A stretch of DNA of 64,000 bases from Lachnospiraceae bacterium (GTDB lineage Bacteria > Bacillota > Clostridia > Lachnospirales > Lachnospiraceae). Below the pieces are notes generated by a model. It was not told the DNA's origin. It worked only from the letters and a program-made list of their open reading frames with translations, and did no database searches. Positions 37,239 through 62,581 of the stretch are shown piece after piece; the first letter of the stretch is position 1, and each line of letters starts with the position of its first letter. The position numbers and the translations under genes are program-made. Location of the stretch: positions 1 to 64,000 of the forward strand of contig JAETTM010000012.1 of assembly GCA_021769135.1 (NCBI GenBank), written 5' to 3'.

Positions 37239-38363
37239 TTAATAAGCGTTCCTGTAAATTTCAAGAATTTCGTCCTCCGTCAAAGCAACATAATTGTTAT
37301 TCAGCAAACGCTGTTGTGTCTCTACCACATCTTTTGCGAATAACGGCAATTCCTCTTCCTTTATCCCATGCTCCCTCAATGGAGCCCGTTTCAGCACACC
37401 ATCCATCAGCCGGTACAAACCGTTTAGCCCCTCCTTTGCGGGGATTCCCAGTTCTTCCCCAAGAACTGCCCCAAGGCTCTCCAATTTCCCTTCCGGCCGC
37501 TTCCTTGCATATTTTTTCATCACATCGGCAAACATCAGCTGATTGGCCTGGCCGTGGGGAATATGGTGTACGCTGCCCAACGGATAGGCCATGGCATGCA
37601 CTGCGGCACAGCCAGCGTGGCCGAAGGCGATGCCGGCATAGTTGGATGCCCTTAAGAATTCCTGCGCACAGTCCTTCCATGCCTCTCCCCCGCCTTTTTC
37701 CAATGTTCTTTTCCATCCCCGCAGGATATGGCGAAGCGCTTCTATGGAGAACATTTCGGAAATAGCACAGGCATTAGGGCTTAAATAGCTTTCCACCGCA
37801 TGGACCATAGCATCGATAGAAGATGTGGCGAATACGCCATAAGGCAGGCTCATCAGCATATCCGGTATCAGCACCGCTTCATCCGCAAACATAGCGCCGG
37901 ACACAATTCCCTGCTTTACTCCCTTGGATATCCTGTTAATGATGGAAATATTAGTAACCTCACTCCCCGTTCCGCAAGTGGTTGGCACGATGAGAAGGGG
38001 ATGGGCTTTTACCAGCCCCTCCGCCATCCGGTCATATAAATCGTCCACCCTATCCTCCGGCGCTGCCACCGCCAGCACCTTCGCAATATCAATTACCGTT
38101 CCGCCGCCTACTGCAATAATGCGTCCATATTCCTTCCCCCGCAGTTCATCCAAAATAGCGTCCACCATCTCATCGGTTGGCTCCCCGCCGCCGAATTTTT
38201 CCTGAAATACCGTCTGGCACCCCAGGCCAAGCTCCGCAATCACAGGATGATAAATATATTTGTTTGTTAAAATCAGGTCATCGCTTCCCAGGTCCGCCGC
38301 ATCGGCAAAATCTGCAAATTTACCATACTCCGTTATCGACGGAATTATTTGAAATGCTTTCAT
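37239..38363 (-). CDS. iron-containing alcohol dehydrogenase (4-hydroxybutyrate dehydrogenase-like)
   Basis: This protein of about 374 residues is a group III metal-dependent alcohol dehydrogenase. NAD binding is shown by AVGGGTVIDIAK near residue 90 and TTCGTGSEVTN near 130. The metal ligands lie in SSIDAMVHAVESY and FGHAGCAAVHAMAYPLG...HIPHG. By eye it is closest to clostridial 4-hydroxybutyrate dehydrogenase. The start is uncertain between 38375 and 38363; the latter matches the family N-terminus. It is the last gene of a seven-gene dehydrogenase/transketolase unit. The real substrate is probably a small hydroxy-aldehyde or acid made in this pathway (inference). Confidence 0.83.
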   Translation of the reverse strand: MKAFQIIPSITEYGKFADFADAADLGSDDLILTNKYIYHPVIAELGLGCQTVFQEKFGGGEPTDEMVDAILDELRGKEYGRIIAVGGGTVIDIAKVLAVAAPEDRVDDLYDRMAEGLVKAHPLLIVPTTCGTGSEVTNISIINRISKGVKQGIVSGAMFADEAVLIPDMLMSLPYGVFATSSIDAMVHAVESYLSPNACAISEMFSIEALRHILRGWKRTLEKGGGEAWKDCAQEFLRASNYAGIAFGHAGCAAVHAMAYPLGSVHHIPHGQANQLMFADVMKKYARKRPEGKLESLGAVLGEELGIPAKEGLNGLYRLMDGVLKRAPLREHGIKEEELPLFAKDVVETQQRLLNNNYVALTEDEILEIYRNAY

Positions 38364-38399
38364 ATAAATTATCATATCCTTTCTTTTCTGCCCAAATTA

Positions 38400-39308
38400 T
38401 CAAACCGATAAACGCCGTTTCCGCGCTTCCCGCATCGCCACGGCCACATCTACAATTTCTTCGATTTCCGGAAGCAGCGCCGCCGGCAAGTCGCAATCAA
38501 AATGGAATTTCATCATAGCAATCTGCTGGCAGGCCAGCATGCTTTTCCCATCGATAATCTCCAGGCCCGCATCCCGTGCCCGCCTTAAAAACGGGGTAAG
38601 GGGATAGGATACATCCGCCGCCACCGCGCCCGGGGCGAGGTTTTCCACAAACTCCCATGGCATATATTCTCCCCGGTTCATTTCCATGCTCAATGTGGTG
38701 CATTGAACCGCAATATGGAACCCGGCCGTATTGCCTACTAAAAATTCATCGGTAAGAGGGCCGGTCAGCACTTTTACATCTTCGTACCTGTCCTTTAGTT
38801 TCTGCGCGATTCCTTCCGCTTTTGCTACGGTCCGGTTCGCTATGACAAATTCCCTGATACCACATTCACAAAGGGCAGCCGCAATCAGTCCTGCCACCGC
38901 GCCGGCTCCGAGAATAACTACTTTGCACCCGGCCAGTTTTTCCCCGCATTTTAATTCCAGGGCGATTTTCATGCCTATGCCATCCAGGCCGATGCCAATA
39001 AATTTTCCGTCTCTTATTTTCACCCCGTTGACACATTGGAATGTCCGGCTGACTTCATCGCATTCATCCAAATAAGGAATAATTGCCGTCTTCAAAGGGG
39101 TAGTGAGGTCAAATCCTGCAATCCCCAACGTTTTCGCCGCCTTTATAAACCCCGGCAGCCCCTCTTCATCCACATTTTGTGCTGCACAGACAGCATTTAC
39201 GTTTCCCAGTTCGTATACTTTGTTATGTACAAAAGTTGCCGTTCCCTCTTCCAAATGCGTTCCTATCTGAAACAATAATTTTGTATCCACATCATGTTTT
39301 ACGCTCAT
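38400..39308 (-). CDS. shikimate dehydrogenase-like (AroE family) oxidoreductase, variant active site
   Basis: This 302-residue protein has the AroE two-domain layout with the catalytic Lys K73 in FDLTTPLK, N94 and D109 in GIGLDGIG, and a nucleotide-binding loop VILGAGAVAGLIAAALCECG near 125. The SxS motif that binds the shikimate carboxylate in AroE is replaced by TATF near residue 24, and the PHK signature reads PLK. It therefore probably oxidises or reduces a different polyol or acid. The ATG at 39308 follows GGAG by 6 bases. It is translated 19 bases after the transketolase C-subunit gene, so a biosynthetic aromatic role is unlikely. Confidence 0.8.
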   Translation of the reverse strand: MSVKHDVDTKLLFQIGTHLEEGTATFVHNKVYELGNVNAVCAAQNVDEEGLPGFIKAAKTLGIAGFDLTTPLKTAIIPYLDECDEVSRTFQCVNGVKIRDGKFIGIGLDGIGMKIALELKCGEKLAGCKVVILGAGAVAGLIAAALCECGIREFVIANRTVAKAEGIAQKLKDRYEDVKVLTGPLTDEFLVGNTAGFHIAVQCTTLSMEMNRGEYMPWEFVENLAPGAVAADVSYPLTPFLRRARDAGLEIIDGKSMLACQQIAMMKFHFDCDLPAALLPEIEEIVDVAVAMREARKRRLSV

Positions 39309-39327
39309 ATTCAACTCCGATTCTGAA

Positions 39328-40293
39328 CTATTTTCTTTCCAATACCCGTTCTACTGCGGCAACGATATGTTCCGCCGTCAGGCCGAACCGCTCCCGCAAA
39401 TAGTCCACAGGGCCCACTTCCCCGAATTCATCCTGTACGCCCACATATTCCATCGGAACAGGATATCGGCGCGCCACAGCCTGGGATACCGCAGCGCCAA
39501 GCCCATTGATTATATTGTGGTTTTCCGCCGTAACAATAGCCCCTGTTTCCTCCGCTGCCCGGATAACGGCATCTTCATCCAACGGCTTCCATGTAAACAT
39601 ATCCAGAACCCTCACCGAGACTCCCTTCCGCGCCAGGATATCGGCGGCATCAATTGCTTCTTTTACACAATACCCGCTGGCAATTACAGTGGCATCCTTT
39701 CCGTCGATAATCGGCACGGCCTTCCCGATTTCGAATGTGGAACCTTCCTTATATATTTCCGGGGCGGAGCGTCTCACCAGCCTTAGATAGCACATCCCAT
39801 ATCTCCCGGACACTTGTTTCACCATCTCCCCGAGCATAACATTATCTGTAGGCTCTATGACTGTCATACCCGGAATCAGCCGCATAATCCCCATATCTTC
39901 AAAGGGCATATGGGTTCCGCCATTATAAGCCGCCGTAATGCCGGGGTCGGAGCCGATAACTTTTACATTGGCTTTATTGTATGCGCCTGACAGGAAAATC
40001 TGGTCGCAGGCCCTTCTGGTACAGAACGGGGCAAACGTATGGGCAAAAGGGATTTTCCCCTGTACGGAAAGGCCGCAGGCTACCCCAATCATATTCGCTT
40101 CCTGAATACCGCAGTCAATTGTACGTTCCGGGAATTTTTCCGCGAAAGGCTTCGTTCCCATCGCCGCCATTAAATCCGCATCCAAAACGCATATCCTGTC
40201 ATTTTTCTCCGCCAGCTCTATCAAGGTATCGCAATATACCTTTCTCATTTCTATAGGATTATCATCATGTTTTTCTGATAGTGTAAAATTCAT
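39328..40293 (-). CDS. transketolase, C-terminal subunit
   Basis: This 321-residue protein corresponds to the pyrimidine-binding and C-terminal domains of transketolase. It has the activating Glu in TIDCGIQEANMIGVACGL and HTFAPFCTRRACDQIF, plus the C-terminal VTAENHNIINGLGAAVSQ. The ATG at 40293 is selected because GGAG lies 6 bases upstream. It pairs with the N-terminal subunit gene 23 bases upstream to make a split transketolase, cytoplasmic and ThDP-dependent. In this cluster it probably handles the phosphorylated end-product of the rare-sugar pathway, transferring a two-carbon unit. Split transketolases are known both in pentose metabolism and in apulose-4-phosphate breakdown, so the donor is open. 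Confidence 0.92.
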   Translation of the reverse strand: MNFTLSEKHDDNPIEMRKVYCDTLIELAEKNDRICVLDADLMAAMGTKPFAEKFPERTIDCGIQEANMIGVACGLSVQGKIPFAHTFAPFCTRRACDQIFLSGAYNKANVKVIGSDPGITAAYNGGTHMPFEDMGIMRLIPGMTVIEPTDNVMLGEMVKQVSGRYGMCYLRLVRRSAPEIYKEGSTFEIGKAVPIIDGKDATVIASGYCVKEAIDAADILARKGVSVRVLDMFTWKPLDEDAVIRAAEETGAIVTAENHNIINGLGAAVSQAVARRYPVPMEYVGVQDEFGEVGPVDYLRERFGLTAEHIVAAVERVLERK

Positions 40294-40316
40294 ATTTTTC
40301 TCCATTTCTGCGCTGT

Positions 40317-41177
40317 TTAAGCGTAAGTTCCTTCATATCTGTCCAGTTCCTTCTGCATTTCCGCCAAAGCTTCTTCCTTTTCTTCCGCTGTAAAGCCCCG
40401 GCTGTGGCTGCCCACTTGATTGGCCGATTTGGACCAGCCATATCCTTTCACAGTATCCATAACGATTACCGACGGGCATCCGCGGTTTGCTTTCGCCAGC
40501 GTGATGGCATCGTCAATAGCATCTACATCATGCCCGTTTACCGATTGGGCATACCACCCAAAGGAACGGAATTTCGCCGCGATATCTCCCACATTGCATA
40601 TGGAATCGGTATCCGTGCGCCCATCTATCTGTAATTTATTGTAATCCACAAAAGCAATCAGATGCTCCAGCTTCCGGGATGCCGCATGCATCGCCATTTC
40701 CCATACCTGGCCCTCCTGTATTTCCCCATCCCCTAAAATCAGAAATACATAGTTATCCCTTCCATCTATTTTCATCCCATTGGCAACTCCTGCTGCCAGG
40801 GAAGCTCCCTGTCCAAGGGAGCCGGTTGTCATATCGATGCCGACGGTATGGTTTCTGTCGCAGTGGCTGGGCAAATCCGTATGGGGAATATTCAGAGTAG
40901 CCAGCTGTTCCATGGGAAAATATCCTTTTAAAGCCAGCGAAGCATACACGGCAGGGCCGCTGTGCCCCTTGGAATCCACCAGCCAATCCCTTTCCTCCCA
41001 TTCAGGGTTTGAAGGCTCGATTTTCATCTGCTTATTATACAATACGGACAATAAATCGCAGATAGACAGACAGCCCCCAAGATGCCCCGCCGGCAATCCG
41101 GCAATCATTTTTACCACTTCCATCTGTGCACGTTTTGAAAAAATTTTAATCTCTTTTCTTTCCTTTTCATTCAACAT
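40317..41177 (-). CDS. transketolase, N-terminal subunit
   Basis: This 286-residue protein is the ThDP-pyrophosphate-binding half of transketolase. The GDG...N motif is visible in ILGDGEIQEGQVWEMA followed by AFVDYNKLQIDG. GHLGGCLS and SKGHSGPAVYA hold conserved His residues. The ATG at 41177 follows GAGG by 6 bases. It is encoded just before its C-terminal partner, and 116 bases after the RpiB-like isomerase gene, which fits isomerase and transketolase acting in sequence. The 41178-41293 gap holds no further gene. Confidence 0.92.
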   Translation of the reverse strand: MLNEKERKEIKIFSKRAQMEVVKMIAGLPAGHLGGCLSICDLLSVLYNKQMKIEPSNPEWEERDWLVDSKGHSGPAVYASLALKGYFPMEQLATLNIPHTDLPSHCDRNHTVGIDMTTGSLGQGASLAAGVANGMKIDGRDNYVFLILGDGEIQEGQVWEMAMHAASRKLEHLIAFVDYNKLQIDGRTDTDSICNVGDIAAKFRSFGWYAQSVNGHDVDAIDDAITLAKANRGCPSVIVMDTVKGYGWSKSANQVGSHSRGFTAEEKEEALAEMQKELDRYEGTYA

Positions 41178-41293
41178 AATCATCCTCATTTCTGCGCTGC
41201 GTTTCTCTCTGTCCTAATCATTCCTCTGCCTGCGGATACAGCGCCTGCAAAATTTCCTCTGTTGCAGAGCCAAATATTGTTTTGGTTCATCGC

Positions 41294-41767
41294 TTATGGG
41301 AGTAAAGTTTCCTCCAATTTTTCCACTTCATCCACCAGCCCTTTCAGCACTGCTGCCCTTTTTTCATCCGCACCCTCATGAAAATCTGTGTTCAGGAAAG
41401 TATCCACAATGTCCTTGGCCATCACCGGAGCCACAATGCGCTCCCCCATCGCCAGCATATTGGCGTTATTGATGAACCGTGCGCTGCGGGCCGCCCACTG
41501 GGATTCTACCGGAACGCAATAAATGCCCTTGTGTTTATTGGCCACAATGCTTACCCCGGCTCCTGTTCCGCAAAATACCAGCCCCCGTTCCGCATCTCCC
41601 GACTGCACTGCTTTGGCAACCCGGTCAGAAGCGTACATGAACTTCACTTCCTTATCCGTGGAAAGCGTTCCCCAATCCTTCACCTCATGCCCCTGAGACG
41701 TCAAATGCGCCTTAATCTCTTCCTTCAAATGGAATCCCGCGTTATCCGAACCGATTGCAATTTTCAT
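41294..41767 (-). CDS. RpiB/LacAB-family sugar-phosphate isomerase with altered histidines
   Basis: This 157-residue protein is a typical RpiB-fold isomerase with the base C66 in VFCGTGAGVSI and anion-binding N100. Two positions usually held by His differ: residue 9 is Asn (SDNAG instead of SDHAG) and residue 99 is Ile (FINNAN instead of .HN.AN). His 99 assists ring opening of ribose-5-phosphate in known RpiB enzymes. Its absence suggests a substrate that does not cyclise, such as a tetrose phosphate. Known relatives isomerise D-erythrulose-4-phosphate to erythrose-4-phosphate. The start at 41767 follows GGAG. The family is certain, the tetrose assignment is inference. Confidence 0.85.
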   Translation of the reverse strand: MKIAIGSDNAGFHLKEEIKAHLTSQGHEVKDWGTLSTDKEVKFMYASDRVAKAVQSGDAERGLVFCGTGAGVSIVANKHKGIYCVPVESQWAARSARFINNANMLAMGERIVAPVMAKDIVDTFLNTDFHEGADEKRAAVLKGLVDEVEKLEETLLP

Positions 41768-41800: not shown

Positions 41801-42841
41801 TCACTTGAATTTCACCACGGCCTTAATTACATCCTCTTTATGAAAAGCCGCCTTTTCCAACGCCTCCCCCACTTCTTCAAAATCAAAAATGTGGGATACG
41901 ATTTCCTTTACCGGAATCATCCCCGATGCAATCCTCTGTATCGCCACCGGATATTGATTCCTGTAACGGAATACCGTCTTCACATCCGCTTCCTTTAAAT
42001 AAAGGTTTCGGAAATTAAAAGCTACATCCCCCACAATATTTCCTACCATTACAATAGTGCCGCCCCTGCGTACCAGATATCCTGTTTGCGCCGCCGTCAC
42101 TTTGCTTCCTGCGGTTTCAAAAACATAATCGAATCCTTCGCCGTCCGTAAAGCCGCACATATCCATGAAGTCCACATCTTTCCCCGCATGGAAAACATAG
42201 TCTGCCCCCAAAGCCTTCGCCTTTTCCAGCCGCCTTTCAAACAAGTCCGATACCACTACCGTTCTTGCTCCCGCTGCTTTACAGGCCATCATAGTCACCA
42301 GCCCGATGGCACCGCTTCCTAAAATAAGCGCTGTTTTTCCCGGTTTAAAACGGGCATTTTCCACCGCCTGCAGCCCTACTGCCAGGGGCTCTATCAATGC
42401 CCCGTCCAAAGTGCTCACATTTTCCGGCAGCCGGTAGGTCATAAAGGCCGGATGGTTAATATATTCCCGAAACGCCCCATCGGTGGGAGGCGCTGCCAGG
42501 AATTTTACCTCCCGGCACAGGTTATATCTTCCCTGCCTGCAAAATTCGCACTTCCCGCAGGGCACGCCCGGTTCCAGGGCCACTCTGTCACCGGCCTTAA
42601 GATTTTTCACCTCTTTCCCCACTGCGGTCACTATCCCCGCGCTCTCATGGCCCAAAATAAAAGGATAGGGAACCTTGGTATTTCCAATACATCCATGTTC
42701 GAAGAAATGGACATCCGAGCCGCATACCCCGCAATATTCCAATTTCACCGTTACCTCATCCGCCTGTGGCGCATCCATTTCCATATCCGAAATTTCAATT
42801 TTCTGCATGGCCGTCATATAGGCGGCTTTCATTTTTAACAT
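41801..42841 (-). CDS. zinc-dependent polyol dehydrogenase (sorbitol/xylitol dehydrogenase-like)
   Basis: This 346-residue medium-chain dehydrogenase has the catalytic-zinc motif YCGVCGSDVHFFEHG and GHESAG. All four structural-zinc cysteines are in CGKCEFCRQGRYNLC, and the NAD-binding loop is LGSGAIGLVTMMAC near residue 175. EHGCIGNTKVPYPFILGHE is characteristic of sorbitol/xylitol dehydrogenases. The ATG at 42841 is used because AAGGAG lies 8 bases before it. It oxidises a secondary alcohol of a polyol to a ketose with NAD. It follows another zinc dehydrogenase gene by 48 bases. Confidence 0.9.
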   Translation of the reverse strand: MLKMKAAYMTAMQKIEISDMEMDAPQADEVTVKLEYCGVCGSDVHFFEHGCIGNTKVPYPFILGHESAGIVTAVGKEVKNLKAGDRVALEPGVPCGKCEFCRQGRYNLCREVKFLAAPPTDGAFREYINHPAFMTYRLPENVSTLDGALIEPLAVGLQAVENARFKPGKTALILGSGAIGLVTMMACKAAGARTVVVSDLFERRLEKAKALGADYVFHAGKDVDFMDMCGFTDGEGFDYVFETAGSKVTAAQTGYLVRRGGTIVMVGNIVGDVAFNFRNLYLKEADVKTVFRYRNQYPVAIQRIASGMIPVKEIVSHIFDFEEVGEALEKAAFHKEDVIKAVVKFK

Positions 42842-42889
42842 TTCATCCACTCCTTTTCACAATTTAGGCAGCAAAACTTCCCCTGCCCA

Positions 42890-43942
42890 TTACGGAATCA
42901 ATATCACCTTAATCCCTTCCCTGCTCTCCGCCAACTCAAATCCTTCTTCCCACCTCTCCAGGGGAAATCGCCCTGATATCAAAGGCTTTACATCCACCAT
43001 ACCGCTTTCCAGCAAATGCATGCATTCTATCCAGCTTTCATAGTCATAAGCGAAATGCCCGATTATCTTAATTCCCTTTCTCACAAAATCATCCAATGAC
43101 AGATTTAACGGTTCCGAGTCATATCCGATTTTAATAAATTCGCCTCCCTTTCTTAAAATCTGCAAAGATTCTTCCAGGATATGATTAGCTCCCGCGCAGT
43201 CTATCACCACTTCCGCTCCTTCCCCCTTCGTAATTCCATATATCTTTCCGGGAACATCTTTTTCACCATATATAATTTCTGTAGCGCCATAACTTTGGGC
43301 AATTTCATATTTTCTTTCATTTTGGCTGCGGTTTACTGCAATGACATGTCTGGCTCCCGCCAGCGATGCGATACGCACTGCCAGCAATCCAATAGTTCCC
43401 ATGCCATAAACCACAACGGAATCCCCTGCTTTCAAGTTGCTTTCCTGTATAACTGCTTTGTAGGCATTGGCCAGAGGGTCCATAAAAACAGCCTCTTCAT
43501 ATGTCATCTGTCCGGGAATTCGGAATAGAGTGTTGGGATTAATTGCCAGCAAATCGCCGTTTATTTTTACATACTTTGCAAAACCGCCGTCCATCCCAAA
43601 CCCCAGCCCTTTTCGGTGATTACACATCATATAATTTCCCGTCCCACAATACCGGCATGTTCCGCATAAATAACCGCTGTTATCGGAAACTACTCTTTCC
43701 CCGACCCGGAATCGCGATACTTTCTTTCCGGTTTCGCAAATGATGCCCGCAAATTCATGCCCTATAACCACCGGGGGAATCAGCGCTTTTGAATCGCCTA
43801 TGTTTTTCAGACGCAAATCCGACCCGCATATTCCCGCTGCTTTTACCTCGATGAGTAAATCCTCATCCCCGATTTCCGGCTTCCCTATCTCTTCAAATGC
43901 GAATCCTCCAGGCCCCGCCCTTTTTTTCATTAACGCTTTCAT
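42890..43942 (-). CDS. zinc-dependent alcohol/polyol dehydrogenase
   Basis: This 350-residue medium-chain dehydrogenase has catalytic zinc residues in AAGICGSDLRL and GHEFAG, structural-zinc Cys in CGTCRYCGTGNYMMC, and the Rossmann loop YGMGTIGLLAVRIA near 175. The start at 43942 is chosen because GGAAGGAG lies 4 bases upstream; a longer version would run into the operator. It is the first gene of the right-to-left unit ending at 37239. A perfect GTAAACGTTTAC palindrome in its leader indicates control by the LacI-type protein encoded divergently. Its polyol substrate is unknown. Confidence 0.88.
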   Translation of the reverse strand: MKALMKKRAGPGGFAFEEIGKPEIGDEDLLIEVKAAGICGSDLRLKNIGDSKALIPPVVIGHEFAGIICETGKKVSRFRVGERVVSDNSGYLCGTCRYCGTGNYMMCNHRKGLGFGMDGGFAKYVKINGDLLAINPNTLFRIPGQMTYEEAVFMDPLANAYKAVIQESNLKAGDSVVVYGMGTIGLLAVRIASLAGARHVIAVNRSQNERKYEIAQSYGATEIIYGEKDVPGKIYGITKGEGAEVVIDCAGANHILEESLQILRKGGEFIKIGYDSEPLNLSLDDFVRKGIKIIGHFAYDYESWIECMHLLESGMVDVKPLISGRFPLERWEEGFELAESREGIKVILIP

Positions 43943-44018: not shown

Positions 44019-44117
44019 TATCAGTAGCGATTATTGTTCGTATGATTTCTTCCGGCTCTTTATCCGCCTAATCGCTGACTTGTTACATATTGTAGATGAG
44101 AGAAAGGCATGGTATTT

Positions 44118-45137: not shown

Positions 45138-45165
45138 GCATGCCCATATCGGTATCCCCCTGTTA

Positions 45166-46824: not shown

Positions 46825-46848
46825 TCTTTTCTCCATTCCTGCTCTATA

Positions 46849-49109: not shown

Positions 49110-49123
49110 CTTTTTGTCTCCTT

Positions 49124-50894: not shown

Positions 50895-50936
50895 AACAAA
50901 CCACGCCCCTTCCCCCGCTCATAAAAGTTTTCCGCA

Positions 50937-52001: not shown

Positions 52002-52030
52002 ACCTCTTCCCTCTCATATACGGCAATATT

Positions 52031-53002: not shown

Positions 53003-53065
53003 CCTTTTTTCCTCCTTTCCCACACTACTGTTGCTTTGTCAATTGCGAAACCAACAACCCTGGCC

Positions 53066-53222
53066 GAATATTCTGACAATATAGTCTGTGAAAAGCCTTT
53101 TGTGCCATGGAATCAAGACCATAAATCATGGAGGCGCTATCGCCGACATGATTTTGCCCTATTGGGCTTGATGGAGTGTTTGGCACAGTAGGATTTGAAC
53201 AGACTATATTATCAGAATATTC
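53066..53222. repeat. 157-bp palindromic element with 24-bp terminal inverted repeats (MITE-like)
   Basis: GAATATTCTGACAATATAGTCTGT is matched, with one mismatch, by the reverse complement at 53199-53222. Inside, TGTGCCA/TGGCACA, ATCAAG/CTTGAT, AAATCATG/CATGATTT and GGCG/CGCC nest around a four-base loop at 53137-53140. The whole segment can fold into one long hairpin. No coding frame is evident. It may be a miniature transposable element or an RNA that acts in cis. A clear target-site duplication was not seen. Confidence 0.75.
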
Positions 53223-53257
53223 TCACAGCCTAAAATTTCCCAATTACCAAGCTACCA

Positions 53258-54226: not shown

Positions 54227-54240
54227 AATATCTTCCTCGT

Positions 54241-55740: not shown

Positions 55741-55763
55741 TTTGCTTCTATCCTTTCGAAGGC

Positions 55764-55798
55764 GGGCGCCGCATATGCCTTCCCGCTATACGGCGCCC
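55764..55798 (-). other. intercistronic hairpin between the binding protein and ATPase genes
   Basis: GGGCGCCGCAT (55764-55774) pairs with 55788-55798 over 11 bp with a single G-T pair. No T run follows on the minus strand. It probably stabilises the upstream binding-protein mRNA or lowers expression of the downstream transporter genes. Confidence 0.65.
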
Positions 55799-55864
55799 CT
55801 CAAGAATACAATTTTCCGGGATACCCAAATTGATTCGCCCGCTTCTAATCATAGATTGTCTGGA

Positions 55865-57025
55865 TTATAAATTATTCATGTACTCAACCAATTCTTCATC
55901 CAGTTCAAATACCACCTCTTTAGACCGATAAGCATCCACCTCATCCTGCCAGATTGGCATAACTACGCAATTGTAAACTTCATCGTAGTTCAATCCCAAT
56001 GTGCATTTTACAATGTTCTGCATCCAGCCAAATCCGATTTCCGGAACCGTCTGTGCATTGCCGATGGTAACCCTGAACGGGGAATTTTCTTCCTTCATCA
56101 AATCCAGTATCGTATCCGTGCCATCACAGGAACCAATCAGGAATTTCGACATATCCAGCCCTGACTGGATGGCCGCCTGATAAGCGCCGGTGGATGTGTT
56201 GTCATTGTAGCAAAGAATCATGTCCGTATCCGGGTGCGCCTGCAAAGCTGCTTCGATATTGGTCATCGCTTCTTCCGCGCCTACCGCTTCTACTTTAATC
56301 CATTCAAAGTCGCTGTATACTTCGGCAACCGCTTCCTGCATGCCCCTGCATCTTTCAATGGAGTTCTTTTCCTGGGAAGATGTCAGGTTGATAATCACCG
56401 GTTTATGGTCTGCATCATAATTTTCCTGCATCCATTTCGCGCCCGCTTCACCCAGCTGATGACCCCAGTCATATTCATCATATCCCAGGTAAGCCTTCGC
56501 CTCTGTCACCGCGTCGTCATGAGGATAATAAGCTACATTGATGCCTTTTTCCCCTGCCGAATTCAAAAGATCCGCCATCGCATCTACAGATACGCACTGT
56601 ACAATCAGCGTATCCACGCCGGATTCAATCAGGTTTTCCGTATTCGTCATCTGTTTTTCCGGTTCATTGTTTCCGCCGTCCGTGCTTGTCCAGTTGATGC
56701 CTGTCTGCTTAGCAAACTCTTCATAACCTTTGCAAAGGTTAATCATAAATTCCTGCTGGAATGACATAACGCATGTTCCAACATTCAGGAAGGAAAGGTC
56801 TTTCGCGCCATCCGTCTCCGGGGTTTGGGCAGCCTCTTCAGTTCCGGCATCCGCTTCCTCCGCTGTCTCTTCCGGTGCGCTTTCCTGCGCTTCGCTGCCG
56901 CTATCCGCCTCTGCGCTCGGCTCCGGCGAAGTGTTGCTTCCTGAATTACCGCATCCGCCAAGGCTGGCCAGCAATAATGCTGCGGAAATAACCAATGCTA
57001 AGTTTTTTACGCTTCTCTTTTTCAT
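55865..57025 (-). CDS. sugar-binding lipoprotein (RbsB-like, type I)
   Basis: This 386-residue protein has a signal peptide with the lipobox LGGC and a long Glu/Ala/Ser-rich linker to about residue 70. The mature part starts LSFLNVGTCVMSFQQEF and contains TENLIESGVDTLIVQCV, NLTSSQEKNSIERCRGMQEA, MILCYNDNTSTGAYQAA and FLIGSCDGTDTI, all RbsB-type features. GGAGG lies before the ATG at 57025. It is outside the membrane and feeds the RbsA/RbsC pair. It is the first gene after a promoter flanked by two LacI-type operators. The ligand is not predictable; rare sugars and polyols are typical of this class. Confidence 0.93.
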   Translation of the reverse strand: MKKRSVKNLALVISAALLLASLGGCGNSGSNTSPEPSAEADSGSEAQESAPEETAEEADAGTEEAAQTPETDGAKDLSFLNVGTCVMSFQQEFMINLCKGYEEFAKQTGINWTSTDGGNNEPEKQMTNTENLIESGVDTLIVQCVSVDAMADLLNSAGEKGINVAYYPHDDAVTEAKAYLGYDEYDWGHQLGEAGAKWMQENYDADHKPVIINLTSSQEKNSIERCRGMQEAVAEVYSDFEWIKVEAVGAEEAMTNIEAALQAHPDTDMILCYNDNTSTGAYQAAIQSGLDMSKFLIGSCDGTDTILDLMKEENSPFRVTIGNAQTVPEIGFGWMQNIVKCTLGLNYDEVYNCVVMPIWQDEVDAYRSKEVVFELDEELVEYMNNL

Positions 57026-57170
57026 GATAATGCCTCCTTTTGATTTTTATTATTTGTTTATAAGCTCTACTGTTTTGTATCGCTTATTAGAAACCCTTCT
57101 CACTGCCTATGGGCAGGTTTTGTTTATGTCTGTTCCACTGGTGTACGTAAAATTGTAATTTCCATTTTTT

Positions 57171-57182
57171 GTAAACGTTTAC
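57171..57182. promoter_or_regulatory. LacI-type operator O1 before the rbsB-like gene
   Basis: Perfect GTAAACGTTTAC (14 bp as TGTAAACGTTTACA), centred about 16 bases after the expected transcription start. Confidence 0.75.
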
Positions 57183-57199
57183 AGCAATGAGTTTTGACC

Positions 57200-57228
57200 A
57201 TTCTACCATTCCTATTTTTTACTGTCAA
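57200..57228 (-). promoter_or_regulatory. promoter of the RbsBAC-type transporter operon
   Basis: On the minus strand TTGACA (57228-57223) and TAGAAT (57205-57200) are exactly 17 bases apart. It lies between the two operators, the standard layout for repression by DNA looping. Confidence 0.75.
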
Positions 57229-57278
57229 GTTCCATAAATTTACCAATATTTTTTCCAAATTTTTGGTAATTATTTTTT

Positions 57279-57290
57279 GGAAACGTTTAC
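57279..57290. promoter_or_regulatory. LacI-type operator O2, overlapping the end of the 2-hydroxyacid dehydrogenase gene
   Basis: GGAAACGTTTAC is a near-palindrome centred 108 bases from O1, close to ten helical turns. Its last base is the G of the TAG stop codon of the upstream gene. Confidence 0.6.
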
Positions 57291-58423
57291 TAATTTTGCC
57301 TGATATTGACTCCGTTTCCGCCATTTTTTCTGGCAATCCAATCTTTATGTATCTCAAACCACCCTTCTAAAACGGAAGGGTTGCAAATTGTTTCCGGACG
57401 CTCCCCCCTAAAAAGCGTTTCCAGATTTTCCATGATAATCCTGGAATGGTGCTCCGGTATTTCCCGTGACTGTCCCGCCATATGGGGCGTCAAGACCACA
57501 TTGTCCAGCTTTAACAGAGCATCGTCCGCAGGTATTGGCTCCAAAGGGAATACATCCAGCGCCGCTCCCGCGATTTTCTTCTCCGCCAGCATTTCCCCAA
57601 GCGCAGCATAGTCCATAATCGGGGCCCTGGCAGTATTCACGATGAAAGCCGTAGGCTTCATCAAAGAAAGCATTTCCCTGTTTACCATCCCCTCCGTGGA
57701 AGGGTTCACATTGCAATTAATAGAGATAAAGTCGCTTTCCCTCATCAGCATGGGCAAGTCCACAATTTTCGCATTCATGCCGCTGATTGCTTCCGGCGCA
57801 AGGAAAGGGTCAGCAATCAACAGTTCCATGCCAAAAGCCGCAGCGCGTTTCGCCACCTCGCGCCCTATGCTGCCATAGCCAATCTGGCCGAATTTCTTGC
57901 CGTATAATTCCGGGTATTTCCCGTAAAGGGCAGCCGGGCCATTGGGGTCTGTGGACCAAATCTGGGGCTTTTTGACGCCTTCCTTCTTTTCTTGCTCCTT
58001 ATCTTTATAGACAGCCCCGGCCAGCTTGTCCGTATGCCTTAGCAAATAATCCGTTGTGGATATATTTTTGCAGCATGCCAGCAGGATTCCAATCGTATAT
58101 TCCGCCACGCTTATTGCATTTCTTCCCACTGCCTGTATGACCGGTATCCCCCTTTCTGTGGCCGCATCGATATCAATGCTGGCAAAAGCCTCGTTGCGGC
58201 AGCATGCGATAACCTTAAGGTTCCTGCAGGCATCCATCGTCTCCCCGTCAATATTTTCCACGCCATCGATAACAATATCCGCGTCCTTTATTGCCTCCCT
58301 CATTTCCTCTGTAGAAAGCTTTACCCCTGTATATCCGCGCCCTGTACAGACAATGCTGTCCGCTATAGCCTGTAGGCGCTCCATATATTCTTCCGTAATT
58401 TTTGCTGTTACTACCGCTTTCAT
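57290..58423 (-). CDS. D-isomer-specific 2-hydroxyacid dehydrogenase
   Basis: This 377-residue protein has an N-terminal catalytic domain (KAVVTAKITEEYMERL, LKVIACCRNEAFASID) and a Rossmann domain with IGYGSIGREVAKRAAAFG near 190. The active-site residues are the Arg in NTARAPIMD, the Glu in FPLEPIPADD and the His in LTPHMAGQSRE. It reduces or oxidises 2-hydroxy/2-keto acids with NAD(H). The start is uncertain; 58423 is chosen because the family N-terminus begins there, although the ribosome binding site is far. It ends an apparent unit with the eltD-like, aldolase and FGGY genes, so its substrate is probably a cleavage product such as glycolate/glyoxylate or a short sugar acid. Confidence 0.87.
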   Translation of the reverse strand: MKAVVTAKITEEYMERLQAIADSIVCTGRGYTGVKLSTEEMREAIKDADIVIDGVENIDGETMDACRNLKVIACCRNEAFASIDIDAATERGIPVIQAVGRNAISVAEYTIGILLACCKNISTTDYLLRHTDKLAGAVYKDKEQEKKEGVKKPQIWSTDPNGPAALYGKYPELYGKKFGQIGYGSIGREVAKRAAAFGMELLIADPFLAPEAISGMNAKIVDLPMLMRESDFISINCNVNPSTEGMVNREMLSLMKPTAFIVNTARAPIMDYAALGEMLAEKKIAGAALDVFPLEPIPADDALLKLDNVVLTPHMAGQSREIPEHHSRIIMENLETLFRGERPETICNPSVLEGWFEIHKDWIARKNGGNGVNIRQN

Positions 58424-58451
58424 ATCCAAAACCATAGCCTTTCTATAAGCC

Positions 58452-59969
58452 TTATATTTTTTCCAGTCGCTGCAAATCGTTTTCCAGATGCTGGTACATG
58501 CTCCGGTAAAACGGATATAGCCTATCATAGATTTTTACCCATTCCGGGTTCGGTTCTATGATTTCTTTATATCTTACAGCCTGTTTTGCCGCCTCTTCCG
58601 GTGTATTCACCAGGCCGATGCCGATGCCTGCAAATATGGCATCCCCCAATGCCGCCCTGTCCACCTCCTCATTTTCCATCACTTTCAACGGCATATTGAG
58701 GACTGAGGCTTTAATTTTCAGCCATTCCCTGCTCTTTGCGCCGCCGCCTGCACAGACCACATATTGAGGCTTTACCCCACGCTTTGCCGCTTCCTCAAAA
58801 TTATGGCGGACCGCATAGGATGTTCCTTCAAACACCGCTCTGGCAAGATGCTCCCTCCCCGTACTGCTTGTCATGCCGATAAACATTCCTTTGGCATAGC
58901 CGTTAAAAAGCGGCGACCTTTCGCCCGATAAATACGGAAAATAAATGAGTTTCCCTGCGCCTGGCGGTACGCTGGCCGCATCCCTGTCTAAAGTGCCATA
59001 GGATAGCTTCTCCTTGCCATTTTCAGAAAACAGCTTCCTGAACCACTCGACGCTGGCCCCGCTGGCATTGATGGCCGCTACAAGGATTTCTTTTTCCTTT
59101 TGGAATGGGGAAGGCTTTACCAGCAATCTCCCATAGTCCTGCAGCGGTTTTGAACTATTGAAAAGCAAAATGGAGGAAGTTCCTATCATTTCCGCGGCGC
59201 CTTCATCGCTTACCATGCCATATCCGTAATACGCACTTATCGTATCCGTGGCACCGGCTGCCACCGGCGTTCCCTCCTTCAGGCCGGTAATTTTTGCGGC
59301 CTGGGCCGTCACTTGCCCGATAATATCGAAGGGCTTCGATATGGCAGGAAGCACCTCCCGAAGCGGTATATCCACCGCCTCCTCTATTTCCTTTGACCAT
59401 TGCTGTTTCCCATAATCCATCCCCTGCACTGCTACCGCATGAATAAGGTCTATGGAATATTTCCCGGTCAGCTTATAATTGATATAACCGTTTACTTGAA
59501 GATATATTTTTGTTTTTTCATAGAGCTCCGGCTCGTGTTCCCTGTACCAAAGCATCTTTGGCAGCACATAATAGGCGTCCGGTTCCGATTTCAGGATTCT
59601 CCGGTATCTTTCATGTCCAATCAGCCTATTGGCCGCATAATCCGACTCCGCCTCCGCGCGCCGGTCCATCCATATCATCGCCCGCCGCAGGACATTCCCC
59701 TTTTCATCCAAAGGAATCAGCGAAGGCGACTGGGAGCTTACCGCAATCCCCGCAATTTCTCCCTTCCCCTCTATTTGCCCCGCAATTTTTTTAATTGCAT
59801 CCGCTGTGGCCCTCCACCAGTCCTCCGGCTCCTGTTCCGCATAGGAAGGCCCCTCGAAGTATGTCTTGTATTCTCCTTTCCCATATGCCGCGGGATGGAA
59901 ATCTGTGGTAAAGCAACAGGCTTTCACGGTAGAGGTGCCCACATCGATGCCCAGCAAATATTTTTCCAT
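58452..59969 (-). CDS. FGGY-family carbohydrate kinase (xylulokinase-like)
   Basis: This 505-residue sugar kinase has the phosphate loop LLGIDVGTSTVKACCF, catalytic Asp in AAGATDTISAYYG near 245, FPYLSGERSPLFNG near 340 and the adenosine loop CAGGGAKSREWLKIKA near 410. IAVSSQSPS and WMDRRAEAE are typical of the xylulokinase branch. GGAGG lies 8 bases before the ATG at 59969. It lies 20 bases after the tandem aldolase gene. A kinase followed by a class II aldolase is the standard order for ketose breakdown (fuculose or rhamnulose style), so it probably makes the aldolase substrate. Confidence 0.9.
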   Translation of the reverse strand: MEKYLLGIDVGTSTVKACCFTTDFHPAAYGKGEYKTYFEGPSYAEQEPEDWWRATADAIKKIAGQIEGKGEIAGIAVSSQSPSLIPLDEKGNVLRRAMIWMDRRAEAESDYAANRLIGHERYRRILKSEPDAYYVLPKMLWYREHEPELYEKTKIYLQVNGYINYKLTGKYSIDLIHAVAVQGMDYGKQQWSKEIEEAVDIPLREVLPAISKPFDIIGQVTAQAAKITGLKEGTPVAAGATDTISAYYGYGMVSDEGAAEMIGTSSILLFNSSKPLQDYGRLLVKPSPFQKEKEILVAAINASGASVEWFRKLFSENGKEKLSYGTLDRDAASVPPGAGKLIYFPYLSGERSPLFNGYAKGMFIGMTSSTGREHLARAVFEGTSYAVRHNFEEAAKRGVKPQYVVCAGGGAKSREWLKIKASVLNMPLKVMENEEVDRAALGDAIFAGIGIGLVNTPEEAAKQAVRYKEIIEPNPEWVKIYDRLYPFYRSMYQHLENDLQRLEKI

Positions 59970-59989
59970 ATCCGTATCCTCCATGTTAC

Positions 59990-61306
59990 TTATAATGCGG
60001 GCATTTCCGGTTTAGGAATCTTAAAACGATGTTTCAGCGCCTCAATATTTTCATCTGTTATCTTTACAATATCCTTTTGCATAATTTTCGTATAATGCAC
60101 CGAACGGGCCGTATACTCGAAGATTTCCATTCTGTCATATGCGGCAAAAGGGCTTACGCTGCACACAATATAAAATCCATTGGCCACTATTGCCACAGGC
60201 GTATTTAGGGTCAGATATTCCCCAATCGCTTCCGGGCAGTCTAAAAATGTATCGAAATCAAACGTGCGGCAGGCCTGCAGCCTGTTAAAGCATTCCGGTA
60301 TCACCCTGACATCATAAGGTTCCCCGGTAGTCACAAAGATTCCTGCATATGGGGAAGCCGCCGTAATAATGGAACGGATATCCCCGCAATATTTATAAAT
60401 CAATCCATGCAATCCTGCCATAACGCTGGGCATTTTCCCGGCTTCACACCTGTCTCCTTCCACTCGCACCAGTTCCTTTTCATCCAAAGCACTGTTGTCC
60501 GCGTCAAGGGGCGTAATAATCATACCACCGGCGGAAAGTTTCGCCGAATATACTCCCTGGGAAACGCCAAATATCCGTTTGTCATAAGCACGTTTTGTAA
60601 ATCTGCAAATCTCCTGTCTCAAAAGGAGCTCTTCGTTGGTCATTTTGTTCTCTTCCAGCTTCCCGTACTTTCTTTCGGAAAGTTCTCCGTATTTTTCCAA
60701 CTGTTCATCGGTCAGGCTTCCTGCCGCTTTTCCGATGCTTTTTGCCATCAGCTGGGAACATGCCGCCAGCTCCAGCGCTTCAAATTTTTTATATGCGTCG
60801 AAAAGGTCGATTTTGCTGCCGAGAAAAACCCCATGGTTTTCCAGAATTACCGTATCATATCCTTTTGCAAATACCGAGCCCACATTTTCCACCAAGGCTT
60901 CGCTTCCCGGCAATGCATAGGGCGCCAGAGCGGCCTTCCCTGTCAAAGCATATAAATCCGGCAATATCTTTACGTCCGGCAGTTCATGCATGATGCTCAT
61001 AGCTACCAGCGCCGGGGAATGCGCATGGAGGACGGCACGGATATCCGGCCTCCTGTCATACACCCCTTTATGTATCTTAAATTCCAGGGATGGTTTTGCA
61101 TGCCCGCATATTTCCCCATTTTCCAATATCCGACAGACATCCCCTCTTTTCAAACAGGCTTTATCGCCGCCGGAAGGGGATACCCATACATTCCCTTCCC
61201 CATCCCGGATGGACAAATTTCCTCCCGAAACAGTTGTCAGTTTATTTCCATAAATTTGTGCCATAATTTGGCAGATTTCCTCCGCCGGATGAAGCAAACG
61301 TCTCAT
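59990..61306 (-). CDS. tandem class II aldolase/adducin protein, second half without metal site
   Basis: This 438-residue protein contains two copies of the class II aldolase domain. The first (1-205) is complete: TTVSGGNLS, SPSGGDK, catalytic E75 in PSLEFKIHKG, zinc ligands H94 and H96 in LHAHSP, and H158 in ILENHG. The second (about 225-420) follows the same order, but HAHSP is replaced by TAASP (315-319), E75 by Val and ENHG by ANGF, so it cannot bind zinc in the usual way. Normal aldolases of this family have about 215 residues. AAGGA precedes the ATG at 61306. It probably cleaves a ketose phosphate made by the neighbouring FGGY kinase. Confidence 0.88.
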   Translation of the reverse strand: MRRLLHPAEEICQIMAQIYGNKLTTVSGGNLSIRDGEGNVWVSPSGGDKACLKRGDVCRILENGEICGHAKPSLEFKIHKGVYDRRPDIRAVLHAHSPALVAMSIMHELPDVKILPDLYALTGKAALAPYALPGSEALVENVGSVFAKGYDTVILENHGVFLGSKIDLFDAYKKFEALELAACSQLMAKSIGKAAGSLTDEQLEKYGELSERKYGKLEENKMTNEELLLRQEICRFTKRAYDKRIFGVSQGVYSAKLSAGGMIITPLDADNSALDEKELVRVEGDRCEAGKMPSVMAGLHGLIYKYCGDIRSIITAASPYAGIFVTTGEPYDVRVIPECFNRLQACRTFDFDTFLDCPEAIGEYLTLNTPVAIVANGFYIVCSVSPFAAYDRMEIFEYTARSVHYTKIMQKDIVKITDENIEALKHRFKIPKPEMPAL

Positions 61307-61375
61307 TTTCTTTCCTTACTTCCTTTCCACTTCATGATTGTGGCCGCCTGACAGTCTGCCGGAAGATTATTAAAA

Positions 61376-61389
61376 TGTAAACCTTTACA
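61376..61389. promoter_or_regulatory. LacI-type operator before the tandem aldolase gene
   Basis: TGTAAACCTTTACA differs from the other three sites only in the central CG. It lies about 70 bases before the ATG at 61306, after the eltD-like gene. Confidence 0.55.
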
Positions 61390-61409
61390 AATTCTTATGA
61401 AATTTCATC

Positions 61410-61457
61410 CCGAAAATACTCCAATACCAAATCCACAAAGTATTGGAAGTATTCCGG
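61410..61457 (-). terminator. hairpin after the eltD-like gene
   Basis: On the minus strand TACTTCCAATAC pairs with GTATTGGAGTA (one bulged base) around a 12-base loop, followed by TTTTCGGG. It lies about 50 bases after the stop of the eltD-like gene, and suggests that the aldolase gene has its own start of transcription or is partly attenuated. Confidence 0.5.
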
Positions 61458-61504
61458 GCTTTCTCTGCAGCAGCGTAACGCTATAATATTCCTCTGCCAC
61501 ATCC

Positions 61505-62581
61505 CTAAAACTTAATAGCCACTTTAAAATCCCCATATTTGCCTGTGGCATGCTCAAAGGCCTTTTCCCATTCTTCAATGGGGAACATACTGGACACCAC
61601 CCCATTGGTTTTCAAATTGCCGTTTCCGATATTTTCTATTACAAAAGGATAACAGTAAGGGCTTAAATGAGAGCCTAAAATATCCAGTTCCTTCCTATCC
61701 CCGATGATGGACCAGTCAACAGTGGTCGGCGCGCCGAATACGCTGAACTCCACAAACCTTCCCAGCTTGCGAATCATGCTTAACCCCTGCTGTACGCTGG
61801 AAGGATGGCCGGTGGCTTCGATATAAATATCACATCCGTACCCATCCGTCATCTCGAGTATTTTCGCCACTACATCCTCTTTTCCGGGATTCATCACCAG
61901 GTCAGCCCCGAATTCTTTCGCCTTCTCCAAACGGTTATCCACCATGTCCAGCGCAATCAGTTTGGTCGGGTTCTGCATCCTGGCATAAGTTATCATCCCC
62001 AGGCCCAGCGTGCCCGCTCCCGAAATCACCACAATATCTTCATTGCGTATCTGCGCCCTGTCCACAGCATGTTTGGAACAGCCATAGGGCTCGATTAACA
62101 GCGCTTCCTCCAATGACATCTCCTCCGGAACGCGGGAAATCACCGCCGTCTTCGGATAGCGGACATATTCCGCCATCCCGCCGTTATTCCCTTTCTGGAA
62201 GCCAAAAATAGCATGGGGCTGGCACATCCAGTAGCGCCCGCTCTTGCAGAAACGGCATTCCCCGCAGGGAACAATCTGGTCTGCCGTAATCCTCTGGCCA
62301 AGTTCAAATCCTTGTACATTTTCACCCATTTCCACGATATGCCCTACGAATTCATGGCCCGGTATAAAGGGAGGCTCCACCCATGCAGGCTGCACCTCAT
62401 CCCCCCAGAACATGGCCGCCCCGTGATTGCACTTCAAATCCCCGGCACAAACCCCGCAGCCCTCCGTCTTAATGATAATGTCATCCGGCCCGCATTTCGG
62501 CGTGGGATAGTTCAGTTCCAGCTTATAATCCCCTTTTCCGTATGCCACTAACGCTTTCATTGTCTCCGGTACGTTTCCCAT
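61505..62581 (-). CDS. eltD: zinc-dependent erythritol/L-threitol dehydrogenase-like protein
   Basis: This 358-residue medium-chain dehydrogenase has catalytic zinc residues in GVCAGDLKC and GHEFVG, the structural-zinc set CGECRFCKSGRYWMC, and the cofactor loop SGAGTLGLGMITYAR near 190. The segment CNHGAAMFWGDE with PAW and the later LIEPYGCSKHAVDRAQI closely resembles mycobacterial EltD, which oxidises L-threitol and erythritol to L-erythrulose. GAGGAGGG lies 7 bases before the ATG at 62581. It is the first gene of the cluster, behind a consensus promoter. The resemblance is judged from memory of the family; tetritol specificity is probable, not proven. Confidence 0.75.
   Translation of the reverse strand: MGNVPETMKALVAYGKGDYKLELNYPTPKCGPDDIIIKTEGCGVCAGDLKCNHGAAMFWGDEVQPAWVEPPFIPGHEFVGHIVEMGENVQGFELGQRITADQIVPCGECRFCKSGRYWMCQPHAIFGFQKGNNGGMAEYVRYPKTAVISRVPEEMSLEEALLIEPYGCSKHAVDRAQIRNEDIVVISGAGTLGLGMITYARMQNPTKLIALDMVDNRLEKAKEFGADLVMNPGKEDVVAKILEMTDGYGCDIYIEATGHPSSVQQGLSMIRKLGRFVEFSVFGAPTTVDWSIIGDRKELDILGSHLSPYCYPFVIENIGNGNLKTNGVVSSMFPIEEWEKAFEHATGKYGDFKVAIKF

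Follow-up and report, generated by a model that had tools for sequence, protein, structure and literature searches.

A putative LacI regulon for a rare sugar or sugar acid in a Lachnospiraceae bacterium, set apart from an adjoining ROK-linked polyol dehydrogenase

Which substrate is broken down by the dense run of about twenty sugar-catabolic genes at positions 37239–62581 of a 64,000-nucleotide stretch of Lachnospiraceae bacterium DNA (from JAETTM010000012.1; "the window"), and do these genes form one pathway or several? The window lies on contig C117 of a 4.43-Mb assembly of 152 contigs. A preliminary description had seen there a rare-sugar cluster of uncertain substrate, possibly for tetritols, in which two branches could share the genes, with apulose-4-phosphate chemistry or sugar-acid breakdown as alternatives. 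Its full gene list was recovered within these limits by Pfam and NCBIfam profile scans of the window proteins, and its general reading, a rare-sugar cluster with an uncertain substrate, is supported. Our analysis suggests a putative regulon that comprises the genes from the tandem aldolase to the thiamine diphosphate (ThDP) enzyme together with those from the third zinc-dependent dehydrogenase (ZnDH3) to the iron-type alcohol dehydrogenase (FeADH), whereas the first zinc dehydrogenase (ZnDH1) and its ROK-family neighbor would be separate.

Inspection of the long intergenic gaps for palindromes revealed an inverted repeat, TGTAAA-NN-TTTACA (also written TGTAAANNTTTACA), which the window contains in exact form three times, at 43960, 57170 and 61376, always inside the cluster. 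When one mismatch was allowed four matches were found against 0.15 expected, a number reached in none of 100 shuffles; the fourth (22457, one mismatch) falls outside the cluster. Exact sites thus numbered three in the 26,728 bp of the cluster versus none in 126,639 bases of the same genome outside it, two further ZnDH operons and the window's first 37 kb among them. A further set of 110 fetched loci, 1.10 Mb in total with some overlaps and some stretches from the same genome, likewise had none. A promoter scan of positions 44500–63000 returned 39 sigma-70-like sites against 29.4 expected, and therefore only the sites scoring 12/12 and 11/12 were used. The regulatory elements are as follows.

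61376–61389, no strand assigned: operator-like site 1, TGTAAACCTTTACA, with a CC center on the plus strand, about 70 bp before the aldolase gene
57170–57183, no strand assigned: operator-like site 2, TGTAAACGTTTACA, directly downstream of the −10 element of promoter P2
43960–43973, no strand assigned: operator-like site 3, TGTAAACGTTTACA, with the likely ATG of ZnDH3 17 bp farther on
57278–57291, no strand assigned: a second, weaker operator-like site with two mismatches
62678–62706, minus strand: promoter P1, TTGACA-17-TATAAT (12/12), preceding ZnDH1
57200–57228, minus strand: promoter P2, TTGACA-17-TAGAAT with a TG element (11/12), preceding the importer genes

Each exact site heads one unit: the aldolase, an FGGY kinase and a D-2-hydroxyacid dehydrogenase (2-HADH); the importer; and ZnDH genes followed by those for an RpiB-like isomerase, transketolase, an AroE-like protein and FeADH. 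The LacI gene is situated between the site-bearing units, adjoins site 3 and is divergent from the third unit. Two hallmarks of a local LacI regulon are present: a LacI gene close by, and one near-perfect palindrome repeated in front of several units. The three matching sites and the position of the LacI gene suggest one LacI regulon, with the LacI protein (44109) as the predicted binder of the sites. The region before ZnDH1, in contrast, contained no TGTAAA-NN-TTTACA site. A hairpin between ZnDH1 and the aldolase gene has a z score of −3.9, with none of 200 shuffles as strong, and a terminator-like hairpin lies 3' of the ROK gene (62794–62817). The 12/12 promoter of its own, the strong hairpin and the lack of a site set ZnDH1 apart from the LacI-type units. 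The proposed division into two branches was half right: the boundary as we see it lies between ZnDH1 and the aldolase and not at the LacI gene.

The genes of the cluster and its ROK flank are listed below, with bit scores against the named models.

62839–63966, minus: ROK-family regulator (PF00480), flanking the cluster, absent from the preliminary gene list and outside the proposed LacI regulon
61505–62581, minus: ZnDH1, the "eltD-like" zinc polyol dehydrogenase (PF08240/PF00107), adjoining the ROK gene and outside the proposed LacI regulon
59990–61306, minus: tandem class II aldolase (PF00596 twice; OtnC model 134 bits, cut-off 250)
58452–59984, minus: FGGY kinase 1 (XylB model 332 bits, cut-off 380)
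57290–58435, minus: 2-HADH (PF02826/PF00389); start near 58435 corrected by inference
55865–57025, minus: sugar-binding lipoprotein (Peripla_BP_4)
54241–55740, minus: sugar ATP-binding cassette (ABC) ATPase of RbsA/XylG type, by profile match
53258–54226, minus: RbsC-type permease, by profile match
53040–53240, no strand assigned: nested palindromic repeat of 200 bp, resembling a miniature inverted-repeat transposable element (MITE), filling the gap between the permease gene and the next
52031–53023, minus: phosphotriesterase (PTE)-family hydrolase (PF02126; solved relatives 3orw and 3fdk; up to 297 bits)
50937–52001, minus: ZnDH2, by profile match
50085–50864, minus: AP_endonuc_2 isomerase or epimerase with a triosephosphate isomerase (TIM) barrel (PF01261); true start farther upstream
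49124–50050, minus: 3HCDH-family dehydrogenase; best solved match diketoreductase 4dyd
48294–49127, minus: lactonase-like protein of metallo-beta-lactamase (MBL) fold (AhlS model 303 bits, cut-off 475; 42% identical to AiiB)
46849–48297, minus: FGGY kinase 2 (XylB model 229 bits, cut-off 380)
45166–46836, minus: ThDP enzyme of the acetolactate synthase family; Glu of the HENGA motif present
44109–45137, plus: LacI-family repressor (PF00356; RbsR model 212 bits, cut-off 382)
42890–43942, minus: ZnDH3; start corrected by inference
41801–42850, minus: ZnDH4, sorbitol/arabinitol-type polyol dehydrogenase; nearest solved structure 5vm2
41294–41767, minus: RpiB-family isomerase (general RpiB model 148 bits, cut-off 135)
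40317–41189, minus: transketolase N-terminal half (PF00456)
39328–40305, minus: transketolase C-terminal half (PF02779/PF02780)
38400–39314, minus: AroE-like oxidoreductase of shikimate dehydrogenase fold; third solved match 5-ketofructose reductase
37239–38375, minus: FeADH, by profile match

The RbsBAC-type (CUT2) importer spans 53258–57025. The majority of the catalytic motifs looked for were detected in the cluster proteins; the AroE lysine pattern and, in ZnDH2 and ZnDH3, the first zinc cysteine pattern gave no match as written, the sequences reading by eye TTPLK and CGSD, respectively. Gaps within units mostly measure −4 to 39 bp (−4, −4 and 12 bp from 3HCDH through MBL and FGGY kinase 2 to the ThDP enzyme), with larger ones of 72 bp (ZnDH2 to TIM barrel), 104 bp (RpiB to the transketolase N-terminal half), 124 bp (binding protein to ATPase) and 234 bp (permease to PTE). 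For ZnDH3, the start at 43942 is likelier than that at 44011 because the operator-like site and the ribosome site would fall inside the long open reading frame (ORF). The TIM-barrel frame extends upstream over 50865–50903 (KLGVTEWY, by eye) without ATG, GTG or TTG, and a run of six A is found there. Single-sequence structure predictions (predicted local distance difference test scores of 43 for the TIM barrel and 47 for the binding protein) were not used. Bordering the cluster are an AAA-ATPase-like/PDDEXK gene (35459–37153) and, past the window end, a KilA-N gene; an Rfam scan of 36500–64000 gave no match at gathering score. Farther off, positions 27035–35014 encode a GH32 enzyme, a sugar ABC importer and a histidine kinase with a response regulator, which together probably serve uptake of the fructan or sucrose type. 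The MITE-like repeat, with an RNA fold z score of −9, has a 93.5% identical copy between the ZnDH and DhaK genes of an operon on contig C49 of the same genome (locus L112, 10525–10723) and is thus present in two of its sugar operons.

The tetritol proposal relied in part on the eltD-like gene, ZnDH1. At E 1e-100, relatives of ZnDH1 occurred in 17 of 190 family genomes, own genome included (the family samples contain about one genome per genus). Gene contexts were surveyed for 20 of the 26 other matches, the six left out having 46–63% identity, and many neighbors were named by eye. Six of the seven relatives at 58–65% identity lie beside DhaK (L111, L112, L113, L114, L115, L068), five of them also with DhaL and three with RpiB, whereas DhaK is absent next to all 13 at 72–88% as far as the fetched stretches extend, some of which reach a contig end. 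The neighbors of these 13 comprise a Ugp-type importer with a glycerophosphodiesterase-like gene (two), FGGY with L-ribulose-5-phosphate 3-epimerase-like genes (three), oxoprolinase-like genes (two), D-psicose 3-epimerase or a close relative (two, one of them on contig C110 of the same genome) and others (four). In the ZnDH1 tree a clade with support 1.00 unites the DhaK-linked genes and leaves out the window gene, whose partners are L099 and L100, both glycerophosphodiesterase-linked (0.86); nodes farther down are weak. ZnDH1 is of the right family for EltD, yet stands outside both the DhaK-linked clade and the set of LacI-type sites, and no EltD model appeared among its matches.

In L099 a ROK gene (64% identical) likewise lies beside the ZnDH1 relative (88% identical). 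The ROK-ZnDH1 pair is most likely a separate, commoner polyol dehydrogenase unit abutting the regulon; a search for a shared ROK operator among ZnDH1 upstream regions gave nothing clear. In L099 (6639–14824) and L100 the pair is followed by the Ugp-type importer and the glycerophosphodiesterase-like gene, with ROK seen in L099 only. The own-genome locus on C110 (L109, 7868–11466) holds a ZnDH1 paralogue (72%), a D-psicose 3-epimerase (446.6 bits, cut-off 300) and a ROK gene.

Contig C49 carries a compact ZnDH-DhaK-DhaL-RpiB operon with a divergent ROK regulator (L112, 7703–13011), which would suit a tetritol role better than the window cluster does, though its RpiB scores 118.7 bits with the DerI model, below the cut-off of 240. 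The window RpiB remains at 108 bits with the same model. Neither a Dak-type kinase domain nor a triosephosphate isomerase-type domain was matched by Pfam in any cluster gene. The tetritol reading is weakened by what appears to be a regulatory boundary, by the ZnDH1 clade and by the C49 operon.

Some evidence for the proposal comes from relatives of the tandem aldolase. Its N-terminal half has an E75/H94/H96/H158-type zinc site; the C-terminal half (59990–60630) is without the zinc-site residues and retains the fold match. Counting its own, 11 of 250 family genomes encode the protein, with near full-length homologues in the 10 others and one internal stop in three of the matches. Neighboring genes in all fetched loci were taken as the longest non-overlapping ORFs, many named by eye, so that some were missed (the PTE gene of L030 was masked by an antisense ORF). 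Among 11 other aldolase loci, four are sugar-gene settings and seven seemingly unrelated; three contain RpiB-like genes, one of them with DhaK and DhaL. In genome G133 (L054) the aldolase-FGGY kinase 1-2-HADH triad recurs at 43, 47 and 56% identity, near a tripartite ATP-independent periplasmic (TRAP) importer and genes read by eye as PdxA2 and a DUF1537 kinase, with a ZnDH1 relative (80%) about 15 kb away. In G015 (L055) and G104 (L056) an aldolase relative accompanies two RpiB-like genes and an FGGY-like kinase, with, by eye, a dehydratase and aldehyde dehydrogenases. G015 contig C64 (L064, 6077–18330) has genes resembling RpiB, DhaL, DhaK, the tandem aldolase (30%), FGGY and a CUT2 importer in a row, several named by eye, and may be a tetritol or dihydroxyacetone-type operon that uses the tandem aldolase. 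Relatives of 2-HADH at E 1e-70 were present in three of 250 genomes, own included, at 57 and 51% identity; in G085 one lies between FGGY-like kinases and a single class II aldolase, with DhaK and a ZnDH1 relative farther on.

Plasmids were searched with seven proteins (10 or 12 matches listed of 159 to 1676 records each), and all matches listed were below 60% identity. Six neighborhoods were opened, among them L118, which carries no annotation. In two Persicobacter plasmids the tandem aldolase (36–37%) stands beside genes read as a deoxysugar-type isomerase and kinase; in L120 (Halorhabdus tiamatea) an FGGY kinase 2 relative (30%) is next to a class II aldolase, GH88 and a beta-galactosidase gene; no sugar genes were seen in L117 and L119. 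Among the matches listed, none of the five neighborhoods analyzed resembles the window cluster as a whole.

The solved PTE-family relatives 3orw and 3fdk are, we take it, lactonases. In G133 contig C61 (L030), PTE relatives at about 32–34% identity have as neighbors an importer, a gene similar to ZnDH3 (50%) and what we read as 2-keto-3-deoxy-6-phosphogluconate (KDPG) aldolase and DgoK genes; in G104 (L032), one at about 30–34% has an importer, a ZnDH and a TIM barrel alongside. ZnDH4 matches sorbitol, L-arabinitol and xylitol dehydrogenases; its nearest solved structure, 5vm2, is YdjJ of Escherichia coli according to PMC10033563. For the AroE-like protein, 5-ketofructose reductase activity is no more than a lead: a shikimate dehydrogenase-like protein of Clostridium pasteurianum was inactive on 5-ketofructose (PMC7954740). 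Two assignments were set aside. Glyoxylate carboligase, considered for the ThDP enzyme, generally lacks the catalytic Glu, which is present here. An inositol route through IolM, IolN and IolO was rejected on cut-offs: the IolM model gave 176, 196, 220 and 211 bits for ZnDH1 to ZnDH4 (cut-off 450), and the TIM barrel as framed at 50085–50864 had no IolO match at E 0.001.

Rare-sugar clusters built in this way are familiar; this one stands out by its mix of genes and by how few close relatives its three marker proteins have. The 3HCDH enzyme was found in one of 250 family genomes (E 1e-40) and one of 16 genus genomes (E 1e-30), its own each time, and in three of 398 phylum genomes (E 1e-45), its own and two at 34–37% identity; a scan of genome contigs with six exact 8-residue patterns, blind to relatives without one of them, added two loci at 24–28%. 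The ThDP enzyme had one match in 190 family genomes at E 1e-110, its own, and no relatives among viral contigs. The AroE-like protein was found in two of 250 genomes at E 1e-40 (its own and one at 36%) and in none of five sister genomes at E 1e-30, a search without a positive control whose empty result shows nothing. With almost no close relatives of these three enzymes among the searched genomes, the route could be uncommon or novel. The literature searched (apulose/apionate, tetritols, inositol, PTE-like lactonases, gulonate 3-dehydrogenase and 5-ketofructose reductase, mostly without subscription papers) contained no description of the gene set by title or abstract start. The cluster is real and rare, with a rare sugar or sugar acid as candidate substrate.

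We tentatively favor, with somewhat less than even confidence, the reading that 61306 down to 37239 is one catabolic regulon under the LacI protein, serving one imported rare sugar or sugar acid. The enzyme set (lactonase folds, 3HCDH, 2-HADH, two FGGY kinases, aldolase, RpiB and transketolase) fits a putative route from sugar or sugar acid to the pentose phosphate pathway, and sugar-acid breakdown fits best among the readings offered previously. The CUT2 importer would take up the substrate. Its oxidation by the zinc dehydrogenases would yield a lactone in one step or more, and the hydrolases of PTE and MBL fold could open the ring. The 3HCDH enzyme may then oxidize the acid at C3, and the 3-keto acid would lose CO2 to give a pentulose, to be phosphorylated by the FGGY kinases. 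The TIM barrel and the aldolase could rearrange or cleave the phosphorylated product, and RpiB and the split transketolase would hand it to the pentose phosphate pathway, while the ThDP enzyme, 2-HADH, the AroE-like protein and FeADH may remove a by-product that is a 2-oxo acid or an aldehyde. Gene context in favor comes from the PTE relatives with importer genes (L030, L032) and from the triad in G133. That the route is specifically a LacI-controlled oxidative one, from a rare aldose over lactone, acid, C3 oxidation by a non-CoA 3HCDH and pentulose to FGGY kinase, epimerase and split transketolase, is a long shot. Equally speculative is its standing as a bacterial counterpart, undescribed in the literature searched, of the animal L-gulonate-to-L-xylulose route, whose steps from L-gulonate over 3-dehydro-L-gulonate to L-xylulose, as given in PMC12435205, are the nearest described analogue of the middle steps. 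If the single regulon is true, the binding protein and the repressor give a direct handle on the substrate, the inducer being whatever frees LacI from the three sites, and the enzymes could then be assayed in order.

Several observations weigh against this regulon. The terminator scan did not list the hairpin that separates ZnDH1 from the aldolase, so that P1 may read through into the aldolase gene. No site and no strong promoter were seen in front of the PTE gene, and because of the 234-bp repeat-bearing gap a single transcript from the importer to the ThDP enzyme is only assumed. None of the cluster enzymes scored high enough for an equivalog assignment that would settle its substrate. Within the family, the nearest two relatives of the PTE protein (41–43%) lie beside thiolase- and dehydrogenase-like genes, a non-sugar setting which argues against a fixed sugar role; AiiB, to which the MBL protein is 42% identical, is an acyl-homoserine lactonase; and 3HCDH scores 139.7 bits with diketoreductase versus 61.4 bits with lambda-crystallin (L-gulonate 3-dehydrogenase). 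No 3-keto acid decarboxylase was recognized in the cluster, nor did Pfam match a relative of DUF1907, the decarboxylase family of the L-gulonate route. All steps derive from family membership, and their order is conjecture. Finally, the L064 setting favors the tetritol reading.

The palindrome also fits the CcpA catabolite-responsive element (cre) consensus WTGNAANCGNWNNCW, so that catabolite control could account for the sites; site 1 is without the CG center. The cluster would then be a CcpA-controlled set of two or three independent neighboring sugar pathways, with the palindrome as cre and not as local operator. The repeat at the permease-PTE boundary and the recurrence of cluster parts in other places without the remainder are in line with this; the 126,639 own-genome bases, other sugar operons included, however contained no exact site and a single cre-consensus match, and the LacI gene lies directly at site 3. 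We regard this as rather unlikely, though worth keeping in view. A pentitol or ketopentose pathway, in which a ZnDH4-type dehydrogenase would yield a ketopentose for an FGGY kinase, the TIM barrel as epimerase, an aldolase-family epimerase, RpiB and transketolase, agrees with the ZnDH4 matches, with the LacI protein being nearest to RbsR and with ZnDH1 relatives in L105–L107 next to FGGY and L-ribulose-5-phosphate 3-epimerase-like genes (AraD-like in L105 and L107). It is improbable in our view, as the TIM barrel reaches merely 33 bits with the 3-epimerase model and the lactonases, 3HCDH, 2-HADH and ThDP enzyme are left unexplained.

Tetritol (erythritol or threitol) use would proceed from ZnDH1 to erythrulose, then through an FGGY kinase and RpiB to erythrose-4-phosphate, or by aldolase cleavage of erythrulose-1-phosphate, and transketolase. 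RpiB and transketolase are indeed present, ZnDH1 shares its family with the DhaK-adjacent dehydrogenases, L055 and L056 combine aldolase, RpiB-like and FGGY-like genes, L064 adds DhaK- and DhaL-like genes, and in G085 (L068) only a few kb and a regulator gene separate relatives of FGGY kinase 1 and 2-HADH from DhaK and a relative of ZnDH1. FucA/RhaD-type aldolases are able to form erythrulose-1-phosphate from formaldehyde and dihydroxyacetone phosphate, according to PMC10733421. We nevertheless consider this quite improbable: ZnDH1 lies outside the site set and the DhaK clade, none of its 13 close relatives surveyed is DhaK-adjacent within the fetched stretches, C49 already has ZnDH-DhaK-DhaL-RpiB, the DerI score is too low, and the lactonases and 3HCDH would have no role. 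Family resemblance, here that of the eltD-like gene, can mislead where a regulatory boundary crosses a cluster.

How, then, does the cluster compare with known systems? With the tetritol pathways of Mycolicibacterium smegmatis (EltD/LerK/LerI/DerI) and Brucella (EryABCHI) it shares the zinc polyol dehydrogenase family, an RpiB-type isomerase, a sugar ABC importer, an FGGY-type kinase and a product proposed to enter the pentose phosphate pathway. LerK is a DhaK-family erythrulose kinase and LerI/EryH a TpiA-like L-erythrulose-1-phosphate isomerase; Pfam matched neither a DhaK-type LerK nor a TpiA-like isomerase in the window cluster, which has lactonases, 3HCDH, 2-HADH, ThDP enzyme and split transketolase as extras, and C49 is the closer counterpart. 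Brucella EryA is presumably an FGGY kinase, and such a kinase for tetritol use is thus compatible with the window. Published work describes the Brucella-type set as eryA, B, C, H and I (PMC10190533) and known tetritol pathways as leading to D-erythrose-4-phosphate via erythrulose or its phosphates (PMC12780249, PMC10733421).

De Ley-Doudoroff-type clusters, as read in G133 C61 (L030), share the CUT2 importer, the ZnDH3-like gene and the PTE-like hydrolase; a sugar-acid dehydratase, a 2-keto-3-deoxygluconate or -galactonate (KDG/KDGal) kinase and a KDPG-type aldolase domain were not matched by Pfam in the window cluster. The D-apiose pathway comprises a split apulose-4-phosphate transketolase, apulokinase and apiose isomerase; the window has a split transketolase and FGGY kinases, no pathway-specific model appeared, and in the literature searched no paper named apulose and one named apionate, a single time. 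The tetronate or four-carbon acid pathway (OtnC, DUF1537 kinase, PdxA2) has in common the OtnC-like N-terminal half of the aldolase, 2-HADH and the TIM barrel, but the window aldolase stays below the OtnC cut-off, FGGY stands instead of a DUF1537 kinase (no DUF1537 domain by Pfam) and PdxA2 is lacking. Pentulose routes such as L105 and L107 (FGGY, L-ribulose-5-phosphate 3-epimerase, AraD) share FGGY, the TIM barrel, the class II aldolase family and a zinc polyol dehydrogenase, whereas the window TIM barrel is remote from the epimerase models and acid-type enzymes are added. RbsR-type LacI regulons differ in that the window LacI scores below the RbsR cut-off and no PfkB-type ribokinase domain was matched by Pfam in the cluster; they share with it a LacI repressor, palindromic sites and the joint occurrence of a CUT2 importer and RpiB.

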